Of a stretch of DNA of 64,000 nt, positions 32,686 through 54,942 are shown piece after piece (position 1 is the stretch's first letter; each line of letters begins with the position of its first letter). Made by a program: the position numbers and the translations under genes. The stretch is from Anaerolineales bacterium (GTDB lineage: Bacteria; Chloroflexota; Anaerolineae; Anaerolineales; UBA11579). The stretch covers positions 881,875-945,874 of the forward strand of contig JAHBVB010000001.1 in the NCBI GenBank assembly GCA_019637805.1, given 5' to 3'. The notes below the pieces were generated by a model that saw nothing but the letters and a program-made list of their open reading frames with translations, made no database searches and was not told the DNA's origin.

Positions 32686-35600
32686 TCAGGCCCGCATCAA
32701 TTGTTCCACGCGGCTTTCGCCCACGCTGTAGTACTTGGCCTCGGGGTGGTGGACGATGATCGCCGCGGTGGACTGCTCCGGGACCAGCTGGTAGGACTCG
32801 GTGAGCGACACGCCCAGTTCCTTTTCGGCGGGCAGCAGGTTCCACACTTTGGCGTGGTCTTCCAGTTCCGGGATGGCCGGGTAGCCCCAGGAGTAGCGCT
32901 TGCCGCGCTTGGCGTCCAGCCCCAACTCGCGGCGGATGTGGCGGTGCAGGTACTCTGCAGTGGCCTCGGCGGTTTGCACTGCCAGGCCGTGCAGGAAATA
33001 GCCTTCGGTGTAATCGTTGGCGGCCTGCAGCGCCTCAAAGCGCTCGCTGGCTTCCTGGCCTACGGTGACGACCTGGAAGGCGACGGTGTCCATGCGCCCG
33101 CTCTCTACGGGGGCGAAGTAGTCCGCCAGGCAGAGCAGGTCGCCGCTCTCTTGACGCGGAAATTCGAAGCGGGTCAACTCGCGCGGTTTGCTGCCGTCCA
33201 GGCTGGCCGGATCGTAGACGATCAGGCTGTCGCCTTCCGCCTGGGCGGGCCAGTAACCATACACGGCTTGCGGTTTCAGCCACCCGGTTTGGCGGGCTTC
33301 CTTCTGCATGCGGGCCAGGCGGGCCTCAAACTCGGCTTCGATCTGCTTCCATTCCTCGCCCTGTTTGTTCTTGGCGCCCCAGGAGAGGCGGAAAAGCTCG
33401 TTCTTGTACAGACACTCGAAGACAGTCTCCAGCGGCATCTGCGGCACCAGGTGCACGCCCCATTTGGGCGGCGTGGGGATTTGCTCGGCGGGACCCACTG
33501 CCGAGCGGCCGCCGACCGCTGCCGTACGGCGCGGCTTGGATTCGCGGGTCAGCTCGCGGGCAGCCTTGGTGAAGATATCTTCCATTAACAACTCGCGGCG
33601 CGGGCCATCGATCAGTTGGTCCATGGTTTCCAGGCCTTCGAAGGCGTCCTGACAGTAAAAGACGCCGGAGTGGTAGGGCTTCTGGTCTTCGGTGTAGAGG
33701 ATGCGCCAACCGAAGCGGCGGTTGATCGCCGCGCCGCCGATCAGCACCGGGTAGTCCAGGCCGCGGCGGTGCAGCTCGTTGATGATCAGCGGCATCTGCT
33801 TGCTGGTGCTGACCAGCAGGGCGCTGAGGCCGATGGCGGTGGCCTTGACCTCCTCCGCCTTGCTGATGATTGTCTCGGCCGGCACTTGTTTGCCCAGATC
33901 GAAAACTTCGTAGCCGTTGTTGACCAGAATGGTCTTGACCAGGTTCTTGCCGATGTCGTGCACGTCGCCGTAGACGGTGGCCAGGACCACTTTGCCCTTG
34001 CTGATGCCCTCGACCTTCTCCAGATAATTCTCCAGGTGGGCGACGGTCTTCTTCATCACTTCGGCGGACTGCAGCACGAACGGCAGGATCAGCTCGCCGG
34101 CGCCGAACTTGTCACCGACTTCTTTCATGCCCGGCAGCAAGGTGTTGTTCAGCAGGTGTACCGCGGCCTCATGGTCGTTGGGAAATTCCTTGCGGGCGAT
34201 GACTTCGTCGATGGCCGCTTCCACACCGTCTTTGTGGCGGTGCAAGATGCTCCAATGCAGGCGTTCCTCGGGGGTCATGCCTTCCATTGGGTTGGCTTTG
34301 GTCTCCTCTTCCACCGGGGCGCGTTGTTCGTAATACTCAATGACCTTTTGCAGCGCATCTGGACGCTTGTTGAAGATCAGGTCTTCCATCAGCTGGCGCT
34401 CTTCTGCCGGAATTTCGGCGTAGGGCTTGACCTTCTCCGCATGGACGATAGCCATGTCCAACCCGGCCTGCACGCAGAAGTGCAGCATCATGCTGTTCAG
34501 CGTTGCGCGGGCCTGGGGTGTCAGGCCGAAGCTGACATTGCTGACGCCCAGCGAGGTCATCACGCCTGGCAGCTCGGCCTTGATCTGGCGGATGGCGTTG
34601 ATCGTCTCCACGGCGCTGTTGTTGAATTCGGTGTCGCCGGTGCTGAGCGGGAAGGTGAGCACGTCGAAGACCAGGTCTTGCGGGCGGAAGCCGAATTCGT
34701 CCACGGCGATGTCGTGGATGCGCTTGGCGATCTCGAACTTGCGCTCGGCCGTCTTGGCCATGCCGGTTTCGTCGATGGTCAGGCACAGCACGGTGGCGTT
34801 GTGTTCTTTGGCGATGCTCAGCACGCGGTCCATCTTGGGCCGCCCGGCTTCCAGGTGGGTCGAGTTGAGCATGCAGCGGCCGGGGGCCAGCTTGAGGGCG
34901 GCTTCCATCACTTCCGGCTCGGTGGTGTCGATCACCAGCGGGGCCTCGACGCCCATGGCCAGCTTCTTGACCACCCTGGACATCAAATATTCCTCGTCTG
35001 GGCGCTCGGTGAGCGCCACGCTGACGTCCAACGTATGGGCGCCGCCAGCGATCTGCTCGCGGGCCATCTCAAGGATGCCGTCGAAGTCCTCGGCCATCAA
35101 TAGTCGTTTGAACTTGCGGCTGCCGGTGCCGTTGAGGCGCTCGCCGATCAGCAGCGGCGGCGGCTCCTGCTGCATGTCGACCGCCTGAATGGAGGAGGAC
35201 ATGCGCACCGGACCCTGTGTGGGCCGCGGCGGTGTGGGGTGGTTGTGGATCTTCTCAACCAGCAGGCGCAAATGCTCCGGCGTGGTGCCGCAGCAGCCGC
35301 CCACGATGGCGACATTGTGCTTGTGCACGAATTCGGCCATCGCCTCGGCGTAGGGTTCCGGTTCCAGCGGATAGACCGCCTCGCCGTCGACATTCAGCGG
35401 CAGACCGGCGTTGGGGATGGCTGAGACTGGCAGGCGGCTGTGCTCGCCCAGGTAGCTGACCGGTTGGCGCATGTGCTCCGGCCCGGTGGAGCAGTTGAGA
35501 CCGATGGCGTCGATCGGCAGCCCGTCCAGAATGGTCAGGGCGGTGGCGATGTCAGTGCCCAGCAGCATACGGCCGGTGGTGTCCAGCGTTACCTGGCACT

Positions 35601-36216
35601 GCACCGGGATGACTTCACCGGTCTCGTCGAAGGCGAGCTGGATGCCCTGGATGGCGGCTTTGACTTCCAAAATGTCCTGCGAGGTTTCGATCAGCAGGAC
35701 GTCCACGCCGCCGGTGATCAGACCCACGGCCTGCTCGCGGAAGAGGTCGACCAATTGGTCGTAGGTGATGTCGGAGAGGGTCGGGTCGTCGGCGCTGGGC
35801 AGTTTGCCGCTGGGGCCGATGGAGCCGGCCACGAAGCGCGGGTGCTCCGCCGTGCTGAACTCGTCAGCGGCCGCCCGCGCCAGGCGGGCGGCCGCCTGGT
35901 TGATCTCGATGGTGCGCTCGCCCAAGCCGTATTCGCCCAGCGTCAGGCGGTTGCTGCGGAAGGTGTTGGTCTCCACCACGTCCACACCGACTTCCAGGAA
36001 GGAACGGTGCACCACAGCCGGCGCCTCGGGATAGGTGATGTTGAGGTAGTCCGGGCAGCCGTTGTACTTTTCGCCGCCGTAGTGTTCAGCGGTCAGGTTC
36101 ATAGTTTGCAGGCTGGTGCCCATGGCCCCGTCGTAGATCAGGACGCGTTTTTCCAGCGCATCCAGGAAGGCGCGGCGGGTGTGGGGGCGGTAGGGGCTAA
36201 TTGGTTTTTCGGTCAC
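32686..36216 (-). CDS. metH: cobalamin-dependent methionine synthase
   Basis: MetH transfers methyl from methyl-THF to homocysteine through cob(I)alamin. The 1176-residue product has all modules. The homocysteine domain (about 20-335) has zinc Cys in GLNCSTGP and GGCCGTTPEH, and the pterin domain spans about 355-620 (LLIGERLNGTGSRKF). A helical cap follows, then the B12 domain with GDVHDIGKNLV (His ligand) and GGAAINRRF at about 745-880. The SAM-dependent reactivation domain has RYSWGYPAIPELEDH near 1110-1130. Start is GTG 36216 after GTGAGAG. A SAM-I riboswitch precedes it. The RYSWGYP form resembles the mycobacterial type. Confidence 0.96.
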   Translation of the reverse strand: MTEKPISPYRPHTRRAFLDALEKRVLIYDGAMGTSLQTMNLTAEHYGGEKYNGCPDYLNITYPEAPAVVHRSFLEVGVDVVETNTFRSNRLTLGEYGLGERTIEINQAAARLARAAADEFSTAEHPRFVAGSIGPSGKLPSADDPTLSDITYDQLVDLFREQAVGLITGGVDVLLIETSQDILEVKAAIQGIQLAFDETGEVIPVQCQVTLDTTGRMLLGTDIATALTILDGLPIDAIGLNCSTGPEHMRQPVSYLGEHSRLPVSAIPNAGLPLNVDGEAVYPLEPEPYAEAMAEFVHKHNVAIVGGCCGTTPEHLRLLVEKIHNHPTPPRPTQGPVRMSSSIQAVDMQQEPPPLLIGERLNGTGSRKFKRLLMAEDFDGILEMAREQIAGGAHTLDVSVALTERPDEEYLMSRVVKKLAMGVEAPLVIDTTEPEVMEAALKLAPGRCMLNSTHLEAGRPKMDRVLSIAKEHNATVLCLTIDETGMAKTAERKFEIAKRIHDIAVDEFGFRPQDLVFDVLTFPLSTGDTEFNNSAVETINAIRQIKAELPGVMTSLGVSNVSFGLTPQARATLNSMMLHFCVQAGLDMAIVHAEKVKPYAEIPAEERQLMEDLIFNKRPDALQKVIEYYEQRAPVEEETKANPMEGMTPEERLHWSILHRHKDGVEAAIDEVIARKEFPNDHEAAVHLLNNTLLPGMKEVGDKFGAGELILPFVLQSAEVMKKTVAHLENYLEKVEGISKGKVVLATVYGDVHDIGKNLVKTILVNNGYEVFDLGKQVPAETIISKAEEVKATAIGLSALLVSTSKQMPLIINELHRRGLDYPVLIGGAAINRRFGWRILYTEDQKPYHSGVFYCQDAFEGLETMDQLIDGPRRELLMEDIFTKAARELTRESKPRRTAAVGGRSAVGPAEQIPTPPKWGVHLVPQMPLETVFECLYKNELFRLSWGAKNKQGEEWKQIEAEFEARLARMQKEARQTGWLKPQAVYGYWPAQAEGDSLIVYDPASLDGSKPRELTRFEFPRQESGDLLCLADYFAPVESGRMDTVAFQVVTVGQEASERFEALQAANDYTEGYFLHGLAVQTAEATAEYLHRHIRRELGLDAKRGKRYSWGYPAIPELEDHAKVWNLLPAEKELGVSLTESYQLVPEQSTAAIIVHHPEAKYYSVGESRVEQLMRA

Positions 36217-36235: not shown

Positions 36236-36378
36236 GTCGCCTCTCATGTTGAGAGGCGACCAGTAGTACGGAACTTATCGCCTCATCTCTCAGAACAATC
36301 TGCCGGAATTGGCACCTGCCGCAATTGCGGCGGTTGCCGAGGCTTCAAAGGGCCGGTCCCTCCACCTCTCTGGATGAG
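36236..36378 (-). promoter_or_regulatory. SAM-I (S-box) riboswitch of metH
   Basis: This leader turns methionine-cycle genes down when SAM is high. Read on the minus strand from 36378, P1 CTCATC pairs with GATGAG near 36282. Between them are AGAGAGGTGGAGGGACCGG, CCCTTTGAAGCC, GGCAACC and GGTGCCAATTCC, all canonical S-box blocks. Downstream, a 10-bp hairpin (36236-36260, loop AACAT) is the OFF structure. Its 5' arm TCGCCTC can instead pair with GAGGCGA at the P1 3' strand, giving the ON structure. No U-run follows the hairpin, so control may be translational. The phage recombinase frame ends inside this aptamer. Confidence 0.95.
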
Positions 36379-37889
36379 TTGCCTATAGACACATCAATAG
36401 GCCAAACGTATTTAATTCTTGCGATTATACCGTCTCTTGAGCGGGATACAGCAACCTGGTGCACCAGGTTGCGGATGATGTGTTTGTTTTGCTGGGGATT
36501 GGCCAGGAGCTTGGATTTGAGCTCTTGGCTCAGGGCCGGGATGTTGATCTGAGCCAGACCATCGGCGGATTGGAGCCTGCCTTTCTCCTGGCGGATCTGT
36601 TCCTGCAGCTGGGGTAAATGGGTTTCCAGCTGGCGGACCTCGTCGAGCATGGCGGTGCTGTGGCCCAGCTCTGCGATCGCTTTTACCAGGTTGGCGAGGC
36701 GGTTTTTGGTTGTTTGCAGATCTTTCCGCAGGCGGTTGAGGTGATGTTCGTCCTTGCCGGCGGCCAGCTTTTGGCCGACACGTGCGGTGATCTCACTGAG
36801 GTTGGCTGGCGCCAGGATCTCGTCGACGAGGGTGGAGAGAACGGCCTGCTCGAGCAGATCTGCCCGGATCATGCGGCAGCCAGGGCCGGCGACGCGGTTT
36901 TTGTTGGCCTGGCAGCGATAGTAGGAGTAGCCCTGGCTGTGATCATGGCGGTTACGACTGCGCGAGCCGACCATGCTGGTCTGGCAGTCCAGGCAGAACA
37001 CCAGGCCGGAGAGGATCAGGGAGCTGCCGAGGATGCGCGGGTGGGTGCGGTTTTTGACCCGGTCGCTGGCTAGATGGCTGATTGCTTGCACGGCGTCCCA
37101 GGTTGCCTGGTCAACGATGGGGTCGCAGTAGTTTTCCACGATGGTTTGGTTGGCGCCTTTGCCGATCACGAGGTGGCCAATGTAGAGCTGGCGGCGAAAC
37201 ATCTTTGAATAGCCATTGCGTGAGGTGTGCAGCTGCAATTTTTTGTGGATCGATTTGATGGTGGCGCCAGCGGCGCGCATGCGAAAGGCCTCGGCAACCA
37301 GGGGTGCGGTGTTTGGATCGATCACCGGCCGGTAGCCTGTGTGTTGGCTGCCGTCGCGGCGCTGGCCGACATTGACCAGCTCGCGGCGAAAGCCGATGGG
37401 GGCGCGATGCCCGGGGAGGATGCCGTATTCCCGGGCAACAAAGTGCAGACCGCGGCGAATGTCGGCGGAAAGATCCTCGCGGAAGCGCTGGCTCATCCAG
37501 TCAATGGCGGCCTCGAAGAGGCGGCCGTCGGCCCCCTCTGGGATGCTGTCGTTGAGGGAATGGATGGAGTAGCCGCGCCGGCGCAGGTCCGCTTTATAAA
37601 ATTGGGCGTCGTCGAAATCGCGGGCGAAGCGGTTGAACCTCCAGAGCACCAGACCGTGGTCTGTGCAGTCGGGCGATCGCAAATGTTGGAGCATGGCCTC
37701 AAAGGCCGCCCGGCCGACAGTGGAGCCACCAGACACGGCCTCGTCGCGAAAGATGGCGGTGAGCTGGTGGCCGCGCTGGTCGCACCATTCGCGAATGGCG
37801 GCCTCTTGCTGCTCGAGGGAGAGATCTTGTTCTGTGCCGCCGCTGTCACGCAGGTAGGCGACCAGGCGTGCGCGAGGCGGCAGGCTCAT
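36345..37889 (-). CDS. large serine recombinase (phage integrase)
   Basis: This 514-residue enzyme would integrate and excise the prophage. The resolvase domain (about 8-150) has catalytic Ser16 in YLRDSGGTEQ with the SLEQQ helix and Arg in LVLWRFNRFARD. A recombinase domain (about 165-270) follows, then a zinc ribbon (VFCLDCQTS ... YYRCQANKN ... GPGC) and a coiled coil (about 380-450). The last ten or so residues (SREVEGPAL) are translated from the host SAM-I aptamer and the stop is the aptamer's TGA. The native C-terminus in free phage is therefore probably different. It starts 4 bases after the small membrane gene. Confidence 0.93.
   Translation of the reverse strand: MSLPPRARLVAYLRDSGGTEQDLSLEQQEAAIREWCDQRGHQLTAIFRDEAVSGGSTVGRAAFEAMLQHLRSPDCTDHGLVLWRFNRFARDFDDAQFYKADLRRRGYSIHSLNDSIPEGADGRLFEAAIDWMSQRFREDLSADIRRGLHFVAREYGILPGHRAPIGFRRELVNVGQRRDGSQHTGYRPVIDPNTAPLVAEAFRMRAAGATIKSIHKKLQLHTSRNGYSKMFRRQLYIGHLVIGKGANQTIVENYCDPIVDQATWDAVQAISHLASDRVKNRTHPRILGSSLILSGLVFCLDCQTSMVGSRSRNRHDHSQGYSYYRCQANKNRVAGPGCRMIRADLLEQAVLSTLVDEILAPANLSEITARVGQKLAAGKDEHHLNRLRKDLQTTKNRLANLVKAIAELGHSTAMLDEVRQLETHLPQLQEQIRQEKGRLQSADGLAQINIPALSQELKSKLLANPQQNKHIIRNLVHQVAVSRSRDGIIARIKYVWPIDVSIGNSSREVEGPAL
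36424..36454 (-). promoter_or_regulatory. candidate promoter reading into the metH riboswitch
   Basis: A perfect TATAAT (36429 down to 36424) lies about 45 bases upstream of the SAM-I aptamer. A TTGCTG (36454-36449) is 19 bases further up. The start would be near 36417. The site lies inside the 3' end of the serine recombinase gene, so the prophage side of the junction may supply it. Confidence 0.4.
36451..36472. repeat. 22-bp perfect palindrome in integrase 3' end
   Basis: GCAACCTGGTG and CACCAGGTTGC form a gapless perfect inverted repeat about 75 bp inside the prophage end. It is within coding sequence for RNLVHQV. It could be part of attP arm sequence or an operator next to the metH-directed promoter. 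Confidence 0.75.
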
Positions 37890-37893
37890 GGCG

Positions 37894-38310
37894 CTAGTGG
37901 CAGTTGGCCAGGATGGCCAGAGCGGCGTAGTTCTGGGATAGCTGGATGACCTGGGCGCCGAAGATGGCCTCGTTGGCCATTAAGTTTTGCTGGTTGATGT
38001 TCTCGGCTCGTGTGTAGACCCCGGTTTGATAGAGGTTCTCCAGGCTGGTGATCCGACTGTTGCCCTGAAGGATCATGCTTTGGGCGGCTTCGATGGTGTC
38101 CTGGCAGGCTTCACTGGGTTTTTCGAAGACCGGCAGATACAAGCCGACTGCAATGGCGGCGAGCAGCAGGATGACGAGCACTCGATAGATTTTGTCTGAC
38201 AAGGGTTTCCTCCGCTTAGGTTTCATGTTGTGCAACAGTTCGCTGCGGTCTGCAGGATGGGTTTCCGCCCAAATGGTTGCCCAGCGCTCCCGCATCTCCG
38301 CCCGCTTCAT
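37894..38310 (-). CDS. small single-pass membrane protein in the integrase operon
   Basis: This is a 138-residue protein with a basic N-terminal third, one transmembrane helix (VLVILLLAAIAVGLYLPVF, about 44-62) and a helical C-terminal region of about 75 residues with one Cys pair (68 and 137). No family is recognised. It precedes the recombinase by 4 bases, so both come from the same SOS-type promoter. It could be a superinfection or regulatory membrane protein; that is only a guess. ATG 38310 is used; a later ATG at 38226 would leave the helix intact. Confidence 0.6.
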   Translation of the reverse strand: MKRAEMRERWATIWAETHPADRSELLHNMKPKRRKPLSDKIYRVLVILLLAAIAVGLYLPVFEKPSEACQDTIEAAQSMILQGNSRITSLENLYQTGVYTRAENINQQNLMANEAIFGAQVIQLSQNYAALAILANCH

Positions 38311-38315
38311 GCTCG

Positions 38316-38345
38316 CAGTTTAGAACGAGTGTTCTAAACTGTCAA
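38316..38345 (-). promoter_or_regulatory. integrase-operon promoter with LexA-like operator
   Basis: On the minus strand TTGACA (38345-38340) and TAAACT (38322-38317) are 17 bases apart. An 11-bp inverted repeat, CAGTTTAGAAC/GTTCTAAACTG around a 4-base centre (38316-38341), overlaps the whole promoter. Its core GAAC-N4-GTTC is the Gram-positive-type LexA/SOS box. Binding would block transcription of the membrane gene and recombinase. Confidence 0.7.
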
Positions 38346-38353
38346 GAGGGCTG

Positions 38354-38758
38354 TCATGGGGTTGATTTGCCTTTGCGTTTCTCGCGCAGGCGGGCCAGCT
38401 CTAGTTCTGCGCGCTCCAGGAGCTCAGCGCGCTCTTCGTCGCTGGCAGCCTGGTCAAAGATGTGCAGCCATTGGCGCTCGTCGTCGCTGATCTCGCCGCG
38501 GGCCGGCAGGACGCCGGCTTTGTCAAATACGAGCTCGGGCGGCACATCGAAGGCGCGGGCGATCTCTTTTAGGGCCTCGGGGCCAGGTCTGCGCAGTCCG
38601 GAGAGCAGCCTTGAAATATGTGTCTGGGAGATTTGTGTGCGCCTGGCCAGGTAGACAGCAGTCCAACCACGCTCGGAGAGCTGGGCCTGAAGCCAAGTGG
38701 AGAAAGACCGGTCGGTTGCCATAAGGTGAGAGAAAGATACCTGCAGGTTAGTTGCCAT
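38354..38758 (-). CDS. XRE-family repressor (CI-like)
   Basis: This is a 134-residue protein with a helix-turn-helix of the XRE/CI type (WTAVYLARRTQISQTHISRL with LLSGLRRPGPEALKEIA) at about 30-70, followed by a short acidic helical tail. It is divergent from a Cro-sized gene across a 76-bp region with palindromes, the layout of a lysogeny switch. There is no peptidase domain, so it could not self-cleave in an SOS response. The start is probably ATG 38758; a minus-strand TATATT 10-15 bases upstream implies a very short or absent leader. Confidence 0.8.
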   Translation of the reverse strand: MATNLQVSFSHLMATDRSFSTWLQAQLSERGWTAVYLARRTQISQTHISRLLSGLRRPGPEALKEIARAFDVPPELVFDKAGVLPARGEISDDERQWLHIFDQAASDEERAELLERAELELARLREKRKGKSTP

Positions 38759-38767
38759 GGGGTTTCT

Positions 38768-38821
38768 AATATATGCCTATTGACATATTTTGCCGGGTAA
38801 TGTATATTGCCAATTGGCAAT
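38768..38821. promoter_or_regulatory. divergent lysogeny-switch promoters and operators
   Basis: The rightward promoter is TTGACA (38780-38785), 17 bases, TATATT (38803-38808). A 16-bp perfect palindrome ATTGCCAATTGGCAAT (38806-38821) covers its -10 and start. A degenerate copy ATGCCTATTGACAT (38773-38786), 10 of 14 positions shared with the palindrome core, covers the rightward -35 and the leftward -10 (minus TATATT, 38773-38768). Repressor and Cro would compete here. Confidence 0.75.
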
Positions 38822-38834
38822 AGGAGAAGACCAC

Positions 38835-39080
38835 ATGGCATATGGACAACAAGCAAAAGCTGCCTTGGTTGAGTGGGCAGAAGCGAACGGCGTAACGCCG
38901 GCCGAATTCCGTGAGAAGACGGGCTGTAGCTACATGCATGCGTGGAAGCTCCTTCGCGGTAACAAGTTCCCTACTAAAGACACAGTCGCCCGCCTGTTGG
39001 CGGCGTATGGCCCGGCGCCGGCGCAGCTGGTGTCTGATGCGCTACAGGGCGTTGGGCCGGCCGTGCAGCAAAAACCCTAG
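38835..39080 (+). CDS. Cro-like small DNA-binding protein
   Basis: This is an 81-residue protein with a helix-turn-helix-like core (TPAEFREKTGCSYMHAWKLL with RGNKFPTKDTVARLLAAYG) at about 20-60. It is the first gene of the rightward early transcript, with AGGAGAAG 6 bases before ATG 38835, directly behind the operator-covered promoter. Size and position fit a Cro-type repressor opposing the divergent CI-like protein. A weak terminator follows, so expression of downstream genes may need read-through. Confidence 0.7.
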   Translation: MAYGQQAKAALVEWAEANGVTPAEFREKTGCSYMHAWKLLRGNKFPTKDTVARLLAAYGPAPAQLVSDALQGVGPAVQQKP

Positions 39081-39085
39081 CACGG

Positions 39086-39108
39086 AACTCTCAATCGTTG
39101 GAGTTTTT
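39086..39108 (+). terminator. weak intrinsic terminator after the Cro-like gene
   Basis: AACTC-T-CAA pairs with TTG-GAGTT around TCG with one bulged base, followed by TTTT. This is the place where an early antiterminator would act. Confidence 0.5.
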
Positions 39109-39130
39109 AGCCGTAAGGCGAGGAGGAATG

Positions 39131-39529
39131 ATGTCTAGCAGTACGCAGACCCCTATCTACACGACCCCATTGGAGCAGTTGATCAGGACCCGAATTGAGG
39201 AAAAACGGGAGAACCGAACAGTGGGGGCGCAAGTCGGCCGCAGTGAGCTGACCATGGCAGTGATTGCCTGGTTCGAGGTGGAGCTGGGCGTGAGCCTAAC
39301 CCCTGGGCTGACGCTGAGGTTGATCGGCGCCGATTTGGACATGTTCCATGTGGAGATCCATCTAGGTCCGGGCGCACTGGTGCGCAGTGAGCATTGTTAT
39401 CGCTACTCGGGCGGCGGCATGGGTGCCGCGTCCCAAATTCGATGGATCGGCATCTCGACCCAATACGGCCGCGGCTTGTTCGGCGATTTCGTCGATGCGG
39501 CCGCGTTTGCGATGGCGGGAGTGCGATGA
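39131..39529 (+). CDS. uncharacterised phage early protein
   Basis: The product is 132 residues with no recognised domain. An N-terminal helix (TPLEQLIRTRIEEKRENRTVG) is followed by a beta-rich part with LTLRLIGADLDMFHVEIHLG. Ribosome-binding AGGAGG (39121-39126) is 4 bases from ATG 39131; the ATG at 39128 is too close. The stop overlaps the tyrosine recombinase ATG, suggesting coupled expression. Function unknown. Confidence 0.6.
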   Translation: MSSSTQTPIYTTPLEQLIRTRIEEKRENRTVGAQVGRSELTMAVIAWFEVELGVSLTPGLTLRLIGADLDMFHVEIHLGPGALVRSEHCYRYSGGGMGAASQIRWIGISTQYGRGLFGDFVDAAAFAMAGVR

Positions 39530-40440
39530 GCCCGGCCTGGAGTATTGACTTTGCCGCGTTCCTGCGGGAGCGTGAGGACCGGAGCGAGCGCACATTGGCG
39601 GCGTACTGCGGTGCGCTGCGGATCTTCGCCGCCTGGTTTGAGGCAGCGTACGGCCGGCCGTTTGCGCCGGCCGAGCTGACGGCCCGCGATGTGCGGGCCT
39701 ATCGCCACGAGTTGCAAGAGGTGCGCGGCCTGGCCGCCTCGACGATCAACGTGGCCCTGGCAGCGCTGAGAGCGCTGGCGCGCTGGGCGATGGCCAGCGG
39801 CGCCTTGACGAGCAACCCGGCGGCCAGTGTGGCCTTTGTGGAGCCGCCGCCGGCGGAGCCGCGCTGGATGACGCGCGGGGAGCTGAGCCGGCTGTTGGCC
39901 GAGTATGAGCGGGCGATCCATGATGCGGCGGCCCGCGGCGCCCAGGAGCGGCAGAGCCAGGCGACGCGTGACCTGGCGGCGGTGGCCTTGATGGCCGGGG
40001 CCGGCCTGCGGGTATCTGAGGCCTGCGCCCTGGACCTGAGCGATGTGCAGCTGGGCGAGCGCAGCGGCCAGGCGATGGTGCGTTTTGGCAAGGGGCGCCG
40101 GCAACGCCGCGTGCCGCTGAGTGCCGAGGTGCGCCAGGCGCTGGACAGTTGGATCCAGCTGCGCGGGGATGCGGATGGGCCGTTGTTGCTGGCCCAGCGT
40201 GGCGGCCGCCTGGGCCCGCGTCAGGTGGAGCGGGTGTTCGAGGAGCGCGCCCGGCGGGCGCGGCTGGAGGGCTATACACCTCACTCGCTGAGGCATACGT
40301 TTGTCAAGCGGGTGGTGGAGGCCAGCGACCTGGCCACGGCCAAAGAACTGGCCGGCCACCGGCAGATCCGCACGACGGCGCGCTATGCGGCGCCGAGCAA
40401 GCAGGAGCTGGCGGCGGCGGCTGAGGGGGTGCTGCTGTGA
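39526..40440 (+). CDS. tyrosine recombinase (XerC/D-like)
   Basis: This is a 304-residue site-specific recombinase with an N-terminal SAM-like core-binding domain (about 5-95) and a C-terminal catalytic domain. The full catalytic set is visible: Arg162 (GLRVSEA), Lys189 (FGKGRR), His253 and Arg256 (HSLRH), His278 (GHRQ) and nucleophile Tyr287 (TARYAAPS). GGGAG lies before ATG 39526. Because the prophage already has a serine integrase, this enzyme may resolve multimers or act in replication rather than integrate the phage; that is inference. Confidence 0.9.
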   Translation: MSPAWSIDFAAFLREREDRSERTLAAYCGALRIFAAWFEAAYGRPFAPAELTARDVRAYRHELQEVRGLAASTINVALAALRALARWAMASGALTSNPAASVAFVEPPPAEPRWMTRGELSRLLAEYERAIHDAAARGAQERQSQATRDLAAVALMAGAGLRVSEACALDLSDVQLGERSGQAMVRFGKGRRQRRVPLSAEVRQALDSWIQLRGDADGPLLLAQRGGRLGPRQVERVFEERARRARLEGYTPHSLRHTFVKRVVEASDLATAKELAGHRQIRTTARYAAPSKQELAAAAEGVLL

Positions 40441-40802
40441 GTCGCTGGAGCGGGCTGCACCCGCATGCCCGGCACGCCCGCCGGCGAGCCAAGCAGCGCT
40501 ATGGCGCCAGCGCGGCGGATGTGAGAACGCTGGAGGGCTGCATCCACATGGAGGCGGGGATCGTGCGCCGCCTGCAGCAGAGCCACAACCGGATGCTGTA
40601 CGAGATCCGGGCGCTGGGGCGCAGCTGGTATGCAATCTATTCGCGGCGCAGCCAGCTGATCGTGACGCTGCTGGCGCCGCAGGATGGCGAGCGGCTGTTT
40701 GCGCGGGCGGAGGAGACCCCGCGCTGTGAGATCTGCGGGTGCATGCTGGCCAATGTGCGCAATAAGCGCTGGTGCACGGTGTGCTGGCAGGAGCGCCGGT
40801 GA
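40437..40802 (+). CDS. small Cys-rich protein (CxxC zinc-binding type)
   Basis: This is a 121-residue basic protein whose last 30 residues contain CEICGC and CTVCW, a four-Cys zinc-ribbon-like arrangement. The N-terminal part is Arg/His-rich and helical, compatible with nucleic-acid binding. GTG 40437 overlaps the recombinase stop by 4 bases. It opens a run of small translation-coupled genes. No family recognised. Confidence 0.6.
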   Translation: MSRWSGLHPHARHARRRAKQRYGASAADVRTLEGCIHMEAGIVRRLQQSHNRMLYEIRALGRSWYAIYSRRSQLIVTLLAPQDGERLFARAEETPRCEICGCMLANVRNKRWCTVCWQERR

Positions 40803-40975
40803 GCCGAGTGCTGGAGTTCGACCTGGTGGTGGAAGTGCTGCCGCTGCCGGCGGAGCGGACGGCCGCCTGGGAGGCGGCGATGCAGGCGCTGGCGGAGTTG
40901 ATCGTAACGGCGGCGATGGCGGCCGGGGAGCAACCGGATGGCGAGACCGTCGAACCAGCGCACGCGGCGGCGTGA
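40799..40975 (+). CDS. small coupled ORF, 58 residues
   Basis: A 58-residue helical, acidic, Ala-rich product starts at GTG within the upstream stop (GTGA overlap) and overlaps the next ATG by 38 bases. It begins VSRVLEFDLVVEVLPLP. The tight coupling on both sides supports it being translated; no domain is recognised. Confidence 0.4.
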   Translation: MSRVLEFDLVVEVLPLPAERTAAWEAAMQALAELIVTAAMAAGEQPDGETVEPAHAAA

Positions 40976-41168
40976 CCGCATCGAGGAGGTGCGCTTCGCG
41001 CTGGGCACCCTGGCCGGCCATTTGCGGATGGTGCGCCTGCGGCTGGAGCAGGCCCGCCGGGTGCCGGGGTTGAGCGCGGTGCTGGGGCCGGGCTTGGATG
41101 CGGCCGACAAGATGGATGCGGCGCTGGCCCGGGCCGGAGCGGCGCTTAAGAAGTTGGAGCAGGAATAG
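40938..41168 (+). CDS. small helical protein, 76 residues
   Basis: A basic N-terminus (MARPSNQRTRRRDRIEEV) and a predicted coiled-coil/helical remainder make up 76 residues. GGAG lies 7 bases before the ATG. It overlaps the preceding ORF out of frame. It could be a DNA-associated accessory protein; no family is recognised. Confidence 0.5.
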   Translation: MARPSNQRTRRRDRIEEVRFALGTLAGHLRMVRLRLEQARRVPGLSAVLGPGLDAADKMDAALARAGAALKKLEQE

Positions 41169-41270
41169 GTGCTGGGTAGTCGGCCGGCCATCAGCCCGGA
41201 GTTGCGCCGAGGCTGGGTTGGTGGTTGGCCGACTGTGCGGCACAGGCTGCACAGAGGACAGGAGGCTGAG

Positions 41271-41624
41271 ATGCAGGTGATCGAGGCGACAGCGCGGCTG
41301 ACCAGTGAGCGGCATGCGCAGGTGCTGAGCCCGGAAGGCCGGTTGTTGGGCTACCGGGCGCGCATTGATTGGGCGGCCGGCCCGCGGCTGAGCCGGCGCA
41401 AGTTCAGCCGGGCGCGGGCGGCGGCGCTGTACCAGCGCCAGTTGCTGGTGCGCTATGAGGATCTGCGGGCCGCGGCGGGGCTGGGCGCGTTCAAGGTCTA
41501 CCTGGTGTGGGGCAGCGGCTACCGCTTGCTGCGCCGGCGGATGCGCTCGCGGGCGGAGGCCGAGCAGTACAGCTGGGCAGTGCCGTTGCGGTTGGGGCGG
41601 CTGAAGGCGGTGGCTGAGCCATGA
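41271..41624 (+). CDS. uncharacterised small basic protein
   Basis: This is a 117-residue basic protein with many Arg, helical in the middle (SRRKFSRARAAALYQRQLLV). ATG 41271 has AGGAGG 5 bases upstream; a GTG at 41169 would lengthen it through a stretch with no coding signal. Its stop overlaps the next ATG (ATGA). Function unknown. Confidence 0.5.
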   Translation: MQVIEATARLTSERHAQVLSPEGRLLGYRARIDWAAGPRLSRRKFSRARAAALYQRQLLVRYEDLRAAAGLGAFKVYLVWGSGYRLLRRRMRSRAEAEQYSWAVPLRLGRLKAVAEP

Positions 41625-42052
41625 TCTGCGAGTATTGCGGCCGGCGGCCAACCCGCCAGGAGCAGGAGTTCTGCCGAGGCTGCGGTGCGCCGGTGGTGGC
41701 GGCTGAGCTGCGCGTAGAGGTCCGCCAGAGTAGGGAGTACCTGGTCTGGTCCGTTGAGCGTCTGGCGGCGTTGATGGTCGAGCCGGTGGGTCCCGACTCC
41801 ATTGGCCAAGAAGCTCTTATGTACAAAGGCCGACTAATGAGCGAGCTGAGCAAGGAAGAGTTGCGCAGTGCGTTCGAGTCGCCAGATCGGCCAGCATTCA
41901 TTCTCCCTCCCGATGCTTATCGGTTTGTGAAGGAGATCGAGCGCCAGCTGGAGAGAGGCGAGGCGGAGCAAGGGCCGCCCATTGGAGTGATCACGTACTC
42001 GCTGCCCAGGTCCCTTTGGCAGCGGTTTTGGGATTGGCTGAGGGGTTGGTAA
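41621..42052 (+). CDS. zinc-ribbon protein with C-terminal amphipathic tail
   Basis: The 143-residue protein starts with CEYCGRRPTRQEQEFCRGCG, a compact zinc ribbon of the type found in small nucleic-acid or membrane-associated bacterial proteins. A helical region and a C-terminal Trp-rich helix (SLWQRFWDWLRGW) follow, which could bind a membrane. ATG overlaps the previous stop by 4 bases. Role unknown. Confidence 0.55.
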   Translation: MICEYCGRRPTRQEQEFCRGCGAPVVAAELRVEVRQSREYLVWSVERLAALMVEPVGPDSIGQEALMYKGRLMSELSKEELRSAFESPDRPAFILPPDAYRFVKEIERQLERGEAEQGPPIGVITYSLPRSLWQRFWDWLRGW

Positions 42053-42124
42053 GCGCCAGGCCAAAAAACTGGAACCCCCAGTCGACCTGGGACTGGAAAC
42101 ACCCCTAGAAACGAGGTCAGAAAC

Positions 42125-42646
42125 ATGTCAGAAATTGTTGTGCAGGGCAAACCCTCATCGCCCTACCGGGCCTATAAAGAACTGGCCCCCCAGGCCCCAT
42201 TTGCCCTTAGGGAGCTGATCGCCGCGCTGGGCTATCCGGTGGAGGAGAAGGCGGGTGGGGCGGTGTACGTTGCTGTGGAAACGCTGGGCCAGATCGCCGA
42301 GGAGTTGAGCGAGATGGTGGGCCAGAGCCCAGCTTGGGGTTGGCGCTATTTGCATGGAGTGCTGAATCAGAAGCAGGCGGCCTCGGCCAAGCTGACCCAG
42401 GCGATCTTCGCCTGGGGGGCGGTGGTGGACGGGATGCCGGCGGTGATGGCCAATACGCAGGATGTGGTGGTGCGGGCCCAGCCCGGGCAGCTGCACCCGG
42501 GGGCGGTGGTGCTGGCGGCCAGCCGGCGCTGCCGGACCTGCCGGGTGGCGTTTGTGCCGCGGGTGCCGTGGCAGCGGTGGTGCACGTCGAAGTGCAGAGG
42601 CAGGTCAGAGGGCGGAGGTGTGAAGTTGGAGGTGGGCGGTGGCTGA
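42125..42646 (+). CDS. uncharacterised phage protein with C-terminal CxxC zinc motif
   Basis: This is a 173-residue protein with a helical N-terminal two thirds and a C-terminal CRTCRVAFVPRVPWQRWCTSKC, a treble-clef or HNH-like zinc site without a visible HNH catalytic triad. A GAGG site lies upstream of ATG 42125. The 72-base gap before it has two ACTGGAA direct repeats (about 42068 and 42104 region). It may be DNA-binding; no firm family. Confidence 0.5.
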   Translation: MSEIVVQGKPSSPYRAYKELAPQAPFALRELIAALGYPVEEKAGGAVYVAVETLGQIAEELSEMVGQSPAWGWRYLHGVLNQKQAASAKLTQAIFAWGAVVDGMPAVMANTQDVVVRAQPGQLHPGAVVLAASRRCRTCRVAFVPRVPWQRWCTSKCRGRSEGGGVKLEVGGG

Positions 42647-42914
42647 GGCATTTACGGACGCTGAATTGGTTGATGCTGAGCTGAAGTCGCGGCTTTCCCC
42701 GAGCACCTACGATCTGGTGTGCAAATGGCGGAATGAGGCGGAGCGCTGGCCCAGCGTGTGGGCGAGGAGAACAAGGCTTTTTGCTTGCGGCTGCAGCAGC
42801 ACGCGGATTGAGGTTTACCGACTGCGGGAAGATTTGGCGCTGTGCCCCGCTCATCAGTCGCCGCTGGTTAGCGCTTCGGAGCATAAAGAATATGGGCAAG
42901 GCGGGCCAAGGTGA
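42639..42914 (+). CDS. small phage protein, 91 residues
   Basis: This is a 91-residue product starting at GTG with GGAGG 7 bases upstream, overlapping the previous stop by 8 bases. It contains three Cys (FACGCSS and LCPAHQ). The N-terminal part is acidic and helical. Function not recognised; kept because of the ribosome-binding site and coupling. Confidence 0.45.
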   Translation: MAEAFTDAELVDAELKSRLSPSTYDLVCKWRNEAERWPSVWARRTRLFACGCSSTRIEVYRLREDLALCPAHQSPLVSASEHKEYGQGGPR

Positions 42915-42976
42915 CCCGGCGCCGGCTGTTCGCTATCGGCTTCACCATCGGGCTGGGGCAGTTGTATGGCTCCTGA
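42911..42976 (+). CDS. possible 21-residue coupled micro-ORF
   Basis: GTG within the upstream stop (GTGA) opens a 21-codon frame encoding a basic then hydrophobic peptide (RRRLFAIGFTIGLGQLYGS). Its stop lies 11 bases inside the next gene, whose own ribosome-binding site is poor. It could exist to couple translation. Weak evidence. Confidence 0.25.
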   Translation: MTRRRLFAIGFTIGLGQLYGS

Positions 42977-43385
42977 GTTGGTGCCGGCGCCGCTGGCCGG
43001 GTTGGAGATCCGCTTCTCCCGCGAGCAGCAGCGCTATTACCTGGCCAATCGTTGGGTGATCGGCCGCCATGTGTATGGCGGTGCCTATTCACAGAGCTGG
43101 ACGGAGGCGGACAGGCGCGCCTGGCTGGAGGGATTGCTGGCCATGTGCCTGTTTGACGTGCGCGCAGATCTCTATCGGCTGCAGCCAGTGGTCAGCGATC
43201 TGGCGTTCCGGGCCGTGGTGGCTTCCCTGGGCTCCCTGCTGCATAAGACGACAATCACGGTGATGCTGGCGGAGCTGGAGGCGCAGGTGGCCTTGTGGTG
43301 CCAGTTGGAGTATGCCGACTTGAAGCTGGCGGACCTGTCGGTGTTCAGTCCCTGGCACGGCGTGGATAAAGGACGGGGCGCATGA
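42966..43385 (+). CDS. uncharacterised phage protein, 139 residues
   Basis: This protein is helical and mostly hydrophobic-amphipathic, with YYLANRWVIGRHVYGG near residue 24 and no Cys motif or membrane helix. It ends the run of small coupled genes before a 292-base structured gap. No family recognised. Confidence 0.5.
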   Translation: MAPELVPAPLAGLEIRFSREQQRYYLANRWVIGRHVYGGAYSQSWTEADRRAWLEGLLAMCLFDVRADLYRLQPVVSDLAFRAVVASLGSLLHKTTITVMLAELEAQVALWCQLEYADLKLADLSVFSPWHGVDKGRGA

Positions 43386-43677
43386 CTCCGGCCGAGCCGC
43401 CGCCGGAGCGATAGGCCGGCGCGCCGCCATCCACCGCCCTGCGGCCCGGAAGTGATTCGCCGCCGCTGGTGGGTAGGAAGTCAGTAGCAGGGAAATTCCC
43501 AACCTACCCCATATCCCCCCTGGCGGGGTCGACGTGGGGGAAAACGCGTTTCGGCGGGGGTTCCCCCTGGGGATGGGATAGGTCGCACAAATGCTTTTGT
43601 GCGACGTTTATTGGCGGGCGGCACGGCTGGGCAACGGCCGGGCGGCCCGAATAAGAGGCAGGAATTAGGTCGCATAA
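43386..43677 (+). promoter_or_regulatory. structured gap upstream of the primase-helicase gene
   Basis: This 292-base gap has several inverted repeats: GGGTAGG (43471-43477) with CCTACCC (43503-43509) enclosing GGGAAATTCCC, G/C-block pairs at 43512-43577, and a 10-bp hairpin GTCGCACAAA/TTTGTGCGAC (43582-43605). The 15-base TAGGTCGCAYAAATG occurs twice, at 43579-43593 and at 43666-43680, the second copy containing the primase start codon. This suits an operator for autoregulation or an origin-linked region. Confidence 0.55.
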
Positions 43678-46425
43678 ATGACGAACGCGGTAGACATCGA
43701 GGCCATCAAACAAGCCAACCGGATCGAGGACCTGGTGGAGGAAGCCGGCTTCCGGCTGGAGGGGCGGGGCCGCTATCGGCGCTGGAGCCAGCACGGCTCG
43801 TTTGTGGTGGATACGGGCAATCAGTCTTTCCACGACAACCACAACCAAGTGGGCGCCGGCCTGCCTGACCGTGGCGATATTGTGGACTGGGTGTGTTGGT
43901 GGAAGAAGGTGCAGTTCAAAGACGCCATCGAGTTCCTGGCGCGGCGGGCGGGCATGGAGTTGCCCGACCGCTGGGCCGGGGACAACGAGGTGCGGCTGGC
44001 GGCCCGGGCTAAGGAGGACGCGCTGACGGTGATCTGCCGGCGCTATGTGCAGCGCCTGTGGCGGACGCACGCGGCGCTGACGTATGCCCGGGGGCGGGCC
44101 TGGGACGATGAGGCGATCAAGGCGGCCGGGCTGGGATACACGGGCTCGGGCGACCGTGAGGAGGCCGACGAGCTGCGCAAGGACCTGGAGGCCAACCTGG
44201 TGGACCCGGAGAGCCCGGGGGCGGTGTCGCTGCTGGGCTATACGGGCGACGTGGCGGCCTGGGGGCGCAAGCACCAGGTGGAGGTGGACCCGGCCTGGGT
44301 GCAGGCGGGGCGGATCCCCGGGGCGCCGAAGGGGATGCTGGTCTACCCGCACGTGGCTGGCGGGCGGGTGGTGTACGTGAGCTTCCGGGGCATCAGGGAG
44401 AAGCGGCACCACAACCTGCCGGCGGCGCTGGCTGGACCCAAGCAAGCCTATCGCAATGCGGTCTGGGCGCCACAGGCGGAGAGCGTGGTGGTGGTGGAGG
44501 GGCAGGCGGACGCAGTGAGCCTGGGCGCCATGGGCCAGGCAGCGGTGGCGCTGGCCGGCAGCCACGTGAGCGAGGATCTGCTGCGCCAGCTGCGGGGCCA
44601 CGAGACGGTGTACCTGGGCCTGGACGTGGACACAGAGGGCGGGGCGGTGGCGGCCAAGGCCGGCGCCCAGCTGGCAGCGGCCCTGGGGCCGCTGGTGCGC
44701 CTGGTGCGCTGGCCGCAGGGCAACGACGCCAACGCCTGGCATCAGGCGTTGGCGGGGGAGCAGGTTGCGGTTGAAGCGCAAGCGGCCGCGCTGCGGTCGA
44801 CGCTGCTCAAATCGCCAACACTCGTGGAGGATTTGGCCGCTCAGGTGGGGGCGATGGATGGAGCGGAGCGAGCCAAAGCTATGAAGGATGTGATGGCGAT
44901 GGTAGCCCAGCTGGACGGTAGCGACCGAGCGCAGCTGCGGTCCAAGCTCGCAAAATTTCTGGGCGTAAATGTGCGGGATTTTGGCCACATGCTGGCTGAG
45001 ACCGAGAAGCTGCTGCTGGCCAGCGTCGATGAGGGCGAGGAAGGCGAGGTGGAGACGGCCGGCGGCTATATCAAGGGCTGGCTGGTGGACCTGCTTTACG
45101 ATCCAGAAAAGCAGCGCACATTTTTTGCCTACCGGGATCCGGACGGGAAGATCGACACGGCGACTCAGCTGGAGATTGAGGGAACCACTTACAAGCCGCT
45201 TTTGCCCGACGATCTACTGCTGAAAGGTGTGGTGGTGCTGCCCTCGGCGCTGGGTGGTGGGCTGAGTGAGAGCGAGCTGGTGGCCAGGATTGTGGCGCTG
45301 GTGCTGCGCTACTACCTGATCGATGAGTTCTACGCTCGGCTGCTGGCTTATTACGTGATGTTCACCTATCACTTCGACAGTTTCCGCTCACTGGTCTACC
45401 TGCGAGTGCTGGGTGACTTCGGCAGCGGCAAAAGCCGCCTTCTGTGGATGGTGGGCTATTTGAGCCGGCGGCTAATCAAGTTAACCGGTGCCACCACGGA
45501 AGCATCCCTATTCCGGATTATGGACCGCTACAAGGGGACCCTGGTGATCGACGAAGCCGACCAGGCAGAGTCTGACCTAGAAGATACGCGCACGAAGTTG
45601 ATGAACCAGGGGAACCAGCGGGATCTGATGGTTGTACGCCAGCAAGACGATGGGCGGGGTGGCTATAAAAGCGTGGCCTTTGATGTGTATGGGCCGAAGA
45701 TTTTGGCCACGCGGCGGCGCTTTCAGGACGAGGCCCTGGAAAGCCGCTGCCTGACGTTGGAGACGATCAAGCACAGTAGCGCTGAGCTCAAATCTCGGGG
45801 GATCCCTTTCGAGCTGAATCGGGCGTTTGACTCAGCGTGCGCCGAGCTGCGTAACGAGCTGCTGCTGTTCCGCTTGAAAACCTGGCTGCCTGACCGTGAG
45901 GTGGCGCCCGACCTGGCGGATGAGCACGTACAGGCGCGGCTGAACCAGGTGATGATGCCTGTCAAAGAGATTATCTCGGACCCCGTTGTGCGCGAGGAGA
46001 TCACCCAGCTGACGCGGCGCTACCAGCAACGCATGGTGACCGAGCGCAGCATGGAGGTGGAGGCCAAGGTGCTGCAGGCGATCGTGGAGATCTGGCAGGC
46101 CGGCCCGGTGACCGAGAAAGAGGGCAAGGCAATCGAACCCTACTACGATCTGAGCATGGGCAACATCGCCAAGATGGCCAACCGGGTGATTGACCAGGAG
46201 AATGCCGACCCGGATGAGGAGGGAGAGGACGGCGAGGAAGGCGGGGGCAACCCAAACCGAAAAAAGCTGACTTCGCGGGGTGTGGGGTCGTATCTGAAAA
46301 ACAATTTGAACCTGCAGTCGGAGAAGGCCAAGAACGGCCCGTTGAAAAGTAAGTACGTGCTGGTGTGGGAAGAGGAGCGCATCCGAGGGCTGTGCGCCGA
46401 ATACGGCGTGGAGATTGACGGGTGA
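43678..46425 (+). CDS. phage primase-helicase fusion protein
   Basis: The 915-residue protein combines a primase and an AAA-type ATPase. The first about 100 residues align with a DnaG CHC2 zinc domain (RGDIVDWVCWW) but the zinc Cys/His are missing. A TOPRIM fold follows with the catalytic Glu in VVVVEGQADA (about 270) and YLGLDVDTEG for the acidic pair. The ATPase half has Walker A GDFGSGKS (about 579) and Walker B LVIDEAD (about 622). A helical C-terminal region follows. It would prime and unwind phage DNA. Repeats in front of the gene and iterons behind it fit a replication module. Confidence 0.85.
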   Translation: MTNAVDIEAIKQANRIEDLVEEAGFRLEGRGRYRRWSQHGSFVVDTGNQSFHDNHNQVGAGLPDRGDIVDWVCWWKKVQFKDAIEFLARRAGMELPDRWAGDNEVRLAARAKEDALTVICRRYVQRLWRTHAALTYARGRAWDDEAIKAAGLGYTGSGDREEADELRKDLEANLVDPESPGAVSLLGYTGDVAAWGRKHQVEVDPAWVQAGRIPGAPKGMLVYPHVAGGRVVYVSFRGIREKRHHNLPAALAGPKQAYRNAVWAPQAESVVVVEGQADAVSLGAMGQAAVALAGSHVSEDLLRQLRGHETVYLGLDVDTEGGAVAAKAGAQLAAALGPLVRLVRWPQGNDANAWHQALAGEQVAVEAQAAALRSTLLKSPTLVEDLAAQVGAMDGAERAKAMKDVMAMVAQLDGSDRAQLRSKLAKFLGVNVRDFGHMLAETEKLLLASVDEGEEGEVETAGGYIKGWLVDLLYDPEKQRTFFAYRDPDGKIDTATQLEIEGTTYKPLLPDDLLLKGVVVLPSALGGGLSESELVARIVALVLRYYLIDEFYARLLAYYVMFTYHFDSFRSLVYLRVLGDFGSGKSRLLWMVGYLSRRLIKLTGATTEASLFRIMDRYKGTLVIDEADQAESDLEDTRTKLMNQGNQRDLMVVRQQDDGRGGYKSVAFDVYGPKILATRRRFQDEALESRCLTLETIKHSSAELKSRGIPFELNRAFDSACAELRNELLLFRLKTWLPDREVAPDLADEHVQARLNQVMMPVKEIISDPVVREEITQLTRRYQQRMVTERSMEVEAKVLQAIVEIWQAGPVTEKEGKAIEPYYDLSMGNIAKMANRVIDQENADPDEEGEDGEEGGGNPNRKKLTSRGVGSYLKNNLNLQSEKAKNGPLKSKYVLVWEEERIRGLCAEYGVEIDG

Positions 46426-46985
46426 ACAGGCCGGTGGACGTGGTGGATGTAGTGGACGTTGGCCGATTTTACGGCGCCGGACTACTGCTGGCTGATGCAG
46501 GGGCACGGCGGAGGCGGAATTTACCCGTAATTGGTGGAGGTAGTGGACGTAGTGGACGTCCATGCGGGGATGATGGATATGTTTTGTCGTCGCGGAGAGA
46601 GGCCCATTTACGGGTAATTGCAAGCATCTGCGCCGGTGGATGTGTAGCACTTAGTGTCTGTTTAACCGCGAAAGACGAAAAAAAGGGCCTTGGCGACGTG
46701 GCTCCTGCTGCTTCTGGTGGACGTCGCGCGCGCGACGTCCACCGAATCGACCGCGACGTCCACCGCGCGGGGGATTCGAGGCGCGATTCGGGACCAGGCG
46801 GGGCGAGCGGCGCGACGCTGGGAATGGCAAACGCGCGCGATTTAGATAAAGGGCTGCGCCCAAGAAGGACGCGGCTATGCGCAAATCAAACAGGGGCTGG
46901 GGGTATGTACGTCCCCTACGTCCCCTATGTCCACCGCGGGCGGTTGTTCGCGGGATATGGCACAAGCGAAAGGCAGGGTTGAGTT
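46426..46985. repeat. iteron and palindrome region (candidate phage origin)
   Basis: No convincing gene fills these 560 bases. Three triplets of a 9-bp unit related to GTGGACGTA occur: forward at 46434-46460, forward at 46534-46560, and inverted at 46908-46934. A single inverted GTGGACGT lies at 46756-46763. A 28-bp perfect palindrome at 46716-46743 carries the unit in both orientations. TTACCCGTAA (near 46521) and its reverse complement TTACGGGTAA (near 46609) form a further pair. An open frame from 46422 crosses it, but the triplets fall in different frames, so selection acts on DNA. Confidence 0.75.
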
Positions 46986-47426
46986 ATGGCGGATGAGCGT
47001 GTGAAAACCGGAGAGGTTGGCTTTTGCCCGCACTGCGGTGAGGTAGCGGATGTGGTGGTGCCGGCGGGGGACCGGCTGCAGGCGCGATTGCTGGCGGCGA
47101 ATGCCCGGCTTTGGTCCCGAATGCCGCCCGTGCCAGGTTTCAGCGGCACGGGAACTGCACGTGTGGGCCGCACCAGGCTGGCTGGAGCAATCGCGATCCT
47201 GGGGGGAGCGAGCGAGAACGCTGTGAAGATTATCAGGAAGGCGGGCTACCGGCCCCTGTGTAGCTCGGAACTGGAGGCCCTGTGTATGTGTCTGAGCGAA
47301 ATGCAGGCCGAGCTGGTCGAGGCAGAGGAAGCCCTGCGGGAGTTGCTGGGCGAGCCGGTGGACCTACTCCGACTGGCGACAGAGTGCCGAGAGTCGACGT
47401 TTGCAGGTGAGGGTGGCGATGACTGA
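46986..47426 (+). CDS. small protein with N-terminal CPHC zinc motif
   Basis: This is a 146-residue protein with CPHCG near residue 14, a basic middle part and an acidic helical C-terminus (SEMQAELVEAEEALRELLG). The second Cys pair of a full zinc ribbon is not obvious. The stop overlaps the next ATG. It may regulate or load replication proteins, but no family is recognised. Confidence 0.5.
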   Translation: MADERVKTGEVGFCPHCGEVADVVVPAGDRLQARLLAANARLWSRMPPVPGFSGTGTARVGRTRLAGAIAILGGASENAVKIIRKAGYRPLCSSELEALCMCLSEMQAELVEAEEALRELLGEPVDLLRLATECRESTFAGEGGDD

Positions 47427-47823
47427 GCGCGTGCTGCCGCTGCTAGATGGTGTGGGGATCTCCGCCGAGGCGGCCCGACTGCTGCCGCTGGAGGTGACCT
47501 GGGCGGTGGAGGAGGAGATCTATGGCGAGGCGGATTACCGCGGCTGGGAAGACATGTCGCCGGCGGGCCTGGCCGGTGGCCGGCTGCAGCTGGCGTACCT
47601 GGGCGGCAAAGCGATCGAGACGGTTGAAGCGGCCCGGGGTGAGCATGTGACCGTGAACCAGGTTAGCCGCAGCGGCCTGTGCCAGCTGCGGGTCGTGCGG
47701 CTGGGGCGGCCGGTGGATGCGGAGCACTACCTGGGGCTGGCGCCAGCGAATGCGCAGGCCTGGGCCTGGGTGGACCGGCGCAGCGGGCAGGACGTGCACA
47801 CCCTGTGGCTGTTATGGAACTGA
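47419..47823 (+). CDS. uncharacterised phage protein, 134 residues
   Basis: ATG 47419 overlaps the previous stop by 8 bases. The product is acidic and mixed alpha/beta with an ending of alternating aromatic residues (AQAWAWVDRRSGQDVHTLWL). No catalytic motif is visible. It is co-transcribed with the ParB-like gene. Function unknown. Confidence 0.5.
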   Translation: MTERVLPLLDGVGISAEAARLLPLEVTWAVEEEIYGEADYRGWEDMSPAGLAGGRLQLAYLGGKAIETVEAARGEHVTVNQVSRSGLCQLRVVRLGRPVDAEHYLGLAPANAQAWAWVDRRSGQDVHTLWLLWN

Positions 47824-47835
47824 GTGGAGGTTGGA

Positions 47836-50048: not shown

Positions 50049-50064
50049 CAAACGGAGGGGAGTT

Positions 50065-50538: not shown

Positions 50539-50557
50539 GTTCTTCGGAGAGGATATT

Positions 50558-50986: not shown

Positions 50987-50994
50987 AAATGACC

Positions 50995-51246: not shown

Positions 51247-51275
51247 AGCACAGGTGTTCTGTTAGAGTCCAGCGC

Positions 51276-54749: not shown

Positions 54750-54785
54750 AAAAAAAGGCCGCCGGAGCCCTCCGGCGGCCTTTTT
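54750..54785. terminator. intrinsic terminator
   Basis: AAAAAAAGGCCGCCGGA and TCCGGCGGCCTTTTT form a 10-bp GC stem around GCCC with A- and T-runs, right after the 27-residue gene. Confidence 0.92.
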
Positions 54786-54787
54786 GA

Positions 54788-54815: not shown

Positions 54816-54830
54816 CTGACGGCTGACAAG

Positions 54831-54929: not shown

Positions 54930-54942
54930 TGGGAGGCCCAGG

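Follow-up and report, generated by a model that had tools for sequence, protein, structure and literature searches.

Does a phage that integrates into a riboswitch have to destroy it, and what then transcribes the gene behind it? The question is raised by a window (the whole stretch of DNA that was analysed, 64,000 nucleotides) from a Chloroflexota genome of the order Anaerolineales, 2.34 Mb in an incomplete assembly of five contigs. Here the reading frame of a large serine integrase ends within the leader of metH, the gene for cobalamin-dependent methionine synthase. The features discussed below are collected in Table 1.

Table 1. Features around the left junction, with their coordinates in the window
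Feature	Position	Strand	Basis
metH, cobalamin-dependent methionine synthase, intact	32686..36216	-	Pfam domains
Expression-platform hairpin GTCGCCTCTCAACATGAGAGGCGAC	36236..36260	-	sequence and fold
metH SAM-I aptamer, almost certainly rebuilt at attL	36280..36380	-	RF00162 score and fold
attL common core, 21 nt, same as attR, CCTCCACCTCTCTGGATGAGT on the + strand	36359..36379		own-genome comparison
Prophage body in the window, extending 11.1 kb beyond the window end to attR	36370..64000		phage genes
attP outer arm GTGTCTAT, phage half	36385..36392	-	joined attP
Candidate replacement promoter TATAATCGCAAGAATTAAATA, resembling the host metH -10/start region	36409..36429	-	motif scans and shuffles
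Large serine integrase, 514 aa	36345..37889	-	ORF, Pfam, PHROG
Small ORF 5' of int, without family assignment	37894..38310	-	domain search
Promoter-like TTGACA-17-TAAACT 5' of the small ORF and int	38317..38345	-	promoter scan, 10/12 matches
Phage repressor (HTH)	38354..38758	-	domain/PHROG match
Tyrosine recombinase	39394-40440		Pfam Phage_integrase, 106.9 bits

A prophage in the metH leader

The original prediction placed a prophage in the metH leader and expected an attR at its right end. Both junctions can indeed be read from the sequence. When the junction region is searched against its own genome, the 21 nt of attL (ACTCATCCAGAGAGGTGGAGG on the metH strand) recur identically at C1:956944-956964, on the same 1.16-Mb contig and 38.7 kb to the right, which gives the element a length of 38,711 bp between the att cores. 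Between these sites lie genes for the repressor, two recombinases, a primase, a ParB-like protein, a family B DNA polymerase (PolB), the large terminase (TerL), a portal protein, head morphogenesis, a head-tail adaptor and an endolysin; judged from its genes alone, the element has the structural, packaging, replication, lysis and repressor functions of a temperate phage.

Once the outer flanks are joined, the resulting leader aligns with that of each of the ten relatives in the genus, all of them prophage-free; a host gene upstream of metH and divergent from it also aligns in several of them. The sequence at 36380-36450, assigned to the phage by the original prediction, stands upstream of metH in none of the ten. 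On this reading of the sequence, we regard a prophage junction in the metH leader as near certain.

The core is not peculiar to this genome. A 20-mer within it occurs in 64 of 400 sampled genomes of the order, as a single copy in each, and only the source genome has two copies. Thirty core-bearing loci were read: metH adjoins in 29, and the rest of the SAM-I aptamer is present at 28 by a simple motif test. Given the single copy and this context, the target is a site conserved widely and present once per genome. No second lysogen of the same type was found among the other sampled genomes (400 sampled, none with two core copies), and an exact 17-mer of the core is absent from the viral contigs searched for phages that share it. 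A looser search for the SAM-I 5' core in viral contigs gave 93 stretches, of which 80 were fetched. All except one of these are chance matches without the remaining aptamer (79/80); the last is a real SAM-I riboswitch adjoining an IS30-like transposase, hence no phage junction.

The riboswitch and the end of the integrase

The aptamer at attL (36380..36280, minus strand) belongs to the SAM-I family by its covariance-model match to Rfam RF00162, which is full length (model positions 1-108) and scores 88.4 bits against a gathering threshold of 44.4 (E 1.2e-19). It is read as intact across the junction: its 3' part is host DNA and the 5' strand of P1 is phage DNA, supplied exactly by the phage half of attP. 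P1 and P2 are kept in the predicted fold of the attL transcript, and folding of the two leaders, attL and attB, gives an identical aptamer, preceded in each by a hairpin immediately 5' of P1. The rebuilding of the aptamer at attL is, in our opinion, near certain. In the model the left arm of the platform hairpin can also pair with the 3' strand of P1 (GAGGCGA), from which we infer riboswitch switching. The 1176-aa product of metH contains every MetH domain and is 98% identical to its counterpart in G010. A further SAM-I riboswitch of the same genome (L006:1337-1441) precedes an apparent metK and is unlike the att core at three of the 21 places.

The integrase stop codon had been predicted to lie inside the riboswitch, and it does: the TGA is at 36347..36345, within CCCTTTGAAGCC. 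The accompanying claim of at least ten terminal residues from the host goes too far. Beyond the 21-nt core there are just four residues (GPAL) and the stop codon; with strand exchange at the dyad centre, the host share would come to about seven to eight residues. The predicted dependence of the integrase C-terminus on the state of the element stands: the protein ends in ...REVEGPAL* when integrated and, judged from the joined attP, would end in ...REVEAHTHTFRIVK* when excised, a swap of four residues against ten. We considered this as a functional switch and rejected it. The altered residues lie past the part that is conserved in relatives, thus the change probably has no effect. Phage BPs of mycobacteria offers a likeness, since there too attP lies within a phage gene and integration alters a protein C-terminus; loss of an ssrA-like tag then activates the repressor, which makes immunity integration-dependent (PMC9262239). 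Unlike in the BPs repressor, what changes here is four versus ten unconserved residues of an integrase.

The native promoter is stranded

In the relatives a TTGACA and a TATACT 17 nt apart are followed, after a short gap, by the aptamer and metH, and this promoter is conserved in all ten. The original prediction expected it at the far end of the prophage, parted from metH. TTGACA-17-TATACT is found exactly there, left at attR, 38.7 kb from metH and directed into the prophage. That integration has displaced the metH promoter is near certain as far as comparison with the relatives can tell. RNA from the stranded promoter would, after about 100 nt, reach an 11-bp GC-rich terminator-like hairpin followed by U residues, which we infer to act as a terminator. 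The same hairpin sits 3' of int in the circular phage. Integration deprives int of it, and the metH leader occupies its place. The element thus separates a gene from its promoter, in the manner of phage regulatory switches of the SpyCI type.

A candidate promoter within int

A TATAAT shortly before the aptamer had been noticed on the phage side, with the suggestion that it replaces the lost promoter. It is present at 36429..36424 (minus strand), inside the 3' coding end of int, with a gap of 44 nt to the aptamer, and the suggestion gains independent support from a match to the genus metH promoter motif (TATACTCGC, a few nt, AATTGAATA). A -10/start weight matrix, built from the ten relatives only with the source genome left out, gives 30.3 bits to the phage site, 34.8 to the native one and 17.4 to the runner-up among 163,002 positions. 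No dinucleotide shuffle of the local sequence (5000 made) attains the score of the phage site; when int is reshuffled among synonymous codons, one run in 20,000 does. Patterns modelled on the two sites have no other match in the 2.34 Mb (reversed control, 0); they were written after both sites were seen, and the relatives-only matrix is the fairer test. From -10 to the aptamer core there are 53 nt at the phage site versus 45 at the native one. The -35 of the phage site is poor (TTGCTG, 19-nt spacer), and a promoter scan leaves the site unlisted. Many different sequences may be acceptable at the end of the integrase, in which case selection need not have produced the motif. An argument from the Ala codon in the mimic, as breaking an invariant Gly, holds among the closest relatives, but was dropped since Ala stands in 7 of the 78 rows of a wider set (the row of the window included).

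The match itself is read from the sequence. We regard TATAATCGCAAGAATTAAATA as a probable replacement promoter, and the motif comparison makes it rather likely that this mimic is the active promoter of metH in the lysogen.

The proposed mechanism and its alternatives

We propose the following scheme. The 5' part of the metH SAM-I riboswitch (the 5' strand of P1, J1/2 and the start of P2) would serve as attB. As attP bears the identical 21 nt, recombination would keep the aptamer whole, much as tRNAs are rebuilt by tRNA-targeting integrases. Integration would part the native promoter from metH by 38.7 kb and aim it into the terminator-like hairpin of the phage, while the metH leader would replace the integrase's own terminator, so that metH would become the downstream gene of the repressor-int block. 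The promoter in the last int codons, which appears to imitate the host -10/start region, would most likely drive SAM-regulated metH in the lysogen. The proposal as a whole (a serine-integrase phage in the metH riboswitch, a rebuilt aptamer and a promoter mimic borne by int) seems likely to us.

It may be objected that the TATAAT-like site is a coincidence and that metH in the lysogen is read through attL from the repressor/int operon. Indeed int, the repressor gene and metH are co-oriented, integration removes the terminator of int, the small ORF and int have a promoter-like site (10 of 12 matches) in front of them, and the mimic has a poor -35. However, coincidence would have to account for a genus-motif match that far exceeds the shuffles, and the upstream site may itself be shut in the lysogen, given the perfect inverted repeat (AGTTTAGAAC-N4-GTTCTAAACT) that covers its spacer and -10. 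We find this explanation rather unlikely. The repeat seems not to mark a wide regulon: AGAACN4GTTCT has three sites in the genome. The small ORF has a 57% identical counterpart in the nearest relative.

The two routes might also be combined: the mimic would yield metH mRNA whose leader is under SAM control as usual, and the int operon of the phage would yield further metH transcripts. To us this is a decidedly minor possibility, though with consequences: ribosomes finishing int would traverse the 5' half of the aptamer up to the TGA, SAM control would be overridden during int expression, and phage induction would be coupled to methionine synthesis.

A different outcome would be that the lysogen has metH practically switched off and depends on MetE, and that excision restores metH, as in a regulatory switch like that of SpyCI and mutL. 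The removal of the native promoter would fit this, and so would the SpyCI precedent (PMC3430984). The genome does encode a MetE homologue, thus metH expression need not persist. On the contrary, the aptamer, the platform hairpin and the metH frame are all intact and a promoter mimic is present, and we consider silencing very unlikely.

Which recombinase integrates the element?

The protein encoded at the junction has the Pfam domains Resolvase, Recombinase and Zn_ribbon_recom and matches phrog_95 (integrase); its catalytic serine region reads LRDSG, with S16 invariant in a 14-row alignment, as expected of a large serine recombinase. The joined attP reads GTGTCTAT-29-ATACACAC, the partner ATACACAC being located at attR, and its inverted arms flank the exchange site, again as in large serine recombinases. 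Among 13 distinct related phages the arms are RTGYCTAT-29-ATAGRCAY or near to it. This common arm type and spacing points to the serine integrase, which very probably catalysed the integration.

The element also encodes a tyrosine recombinase with a Phage_integrase match of 106.9 bits. Should this be the integrase instead, the 21-nt core would be typical; it is long for serine integrases, the figure for mycobacterial Int-S being as few as 3 bp (PMC9262239). Yet the gene at the junction is that of the serine integrase, the joined attP shares its arms and 29-nt spacing with phages of the serine integrase family, and related serine-integrase phages also carry a tyrosine enzyme, which fits another role such as dimer resolution. 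The tyrosine enzyme as integrase is, in our opinion, scarcely probable. As for an assembly artefact or a chance resemblance, suggested by the incompleteness of the five-contig assembly, its probability is negligible given both junctions on one contig, joined flanks that form a leader conserved in ten genomes, and a full set of phage genes.

We collected seventy-odd relatives of the integrase. Some lysogenic ones adjoin tRNA-Arg(CCT) (L039, L040 and L278) and others tRNA-Glu (L222, L261, L262 and L263), and in some of the tRNA-adjoining relatives the integrase stop codon lies inside the tRNA. In the tree the integrase of the window is nearest to L038 and L254, at whose junctions no RNA gene was seen. 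Riboswitches beside other family members were sought and none was found, only tRNAs and one distant SRP RNA. From these comparisons the enzyme appears to be a serine integrase that targets RNA genes, in this case a riboswitch. The serine-integrase phages of mycobacteria do not use tRNA genes according to a review (PMC9262239), hence a tRNA-adjoining clade of such integrases is itself unusual.

Many related phages have a homologue of the tyrosine recombinase in the neighbourhood of the serine integrase. In L192, an ORF for a related serine integrase apparently runs in frame into MPRLGILTGGGDAPGLNAVIRA at the end of a viral contig; this sequence resembles the start of 6-phosphofructokinase.

Relation to known systems and implications

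In phages that use tRNA genes through tyrosine integrases, mycobacteriophages among them, attP restores the 3' end of the tRNA (PMC9262239). The present case is alike in that a conserved structured RNA is targeted and an identical stretch in attP keeps it functional, and unlike in that the enzyme is a large serine integrase and the target a riboswitch. The SpyCI islands part mutL from its promoter in Streptococcus pyogenes, and in strain Manfredo a cryptic promoter inside a decayed int rescues mutL (PMC3430984). There too a host gene is cut from its promoter, and the Manfredo promoter has its counterpart in our candidate promoter within int; in SpyCI, however, the target codes for a protein and the integrase has decayed, whereas here there are a riboswitch, an intact integrase and a host-like candidate promoter. 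Islands and prophages associated with dusA take over the 5' end of the gene they enter and may carry promoter elements in with them (PMC4482086). They share with our element the replaced 5' end and possible new promoter elements, but swap a coding 5' end, whereas here only an RNA leader and promoter are exchanged.

In the literature searched, a coverage that leaves most subscription journals outside, we came across no riboswitch described as an attB. Riboswitch cores are highly conserved like tRNA ends, and so should make good attachment sites; on our reading, a phage here uses one without breaking the riboswitch. The case suggests further that a phage encodes a copy of a host promoter within its integrase gene, and it adds large serine integrases located in tRNA genes. 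It raises the testable question of whether such mimicry lets the lysogen retain host metabolic RNA control, and the question of whether prophage junctions lie unnoticed in further riboswitch leaders.

Further observations

In a distant integrase clade (L264-L275), TATAAT or TATACT stands at the place homologous to the mimic in 6 of 12 members, through different codons; outward promoters at the 3' ends of int genes may recur. A perfect 22-bp palindrome (GCAACCTGGTGCACCAGGTTGC, 36451-36472) lies in int just upstream of the candidate promoter. Further copies that could be phage operators were not found at up to three mismatches, nor is there a second in the window, and palindromes at the homologous place in relatives are enriched only slightly. 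The family B DNA polymerase (52057-54327) is carried by a phage as small as 38.7 kb. Other perfect palindromes measure 28 bp (46716-46743) and 34 bp (29820-29853). The latter lies between a plus-strand ORF ending at 29810 and a minus-strand ORF ending at 29850, and is likely a bidirectional terminator.
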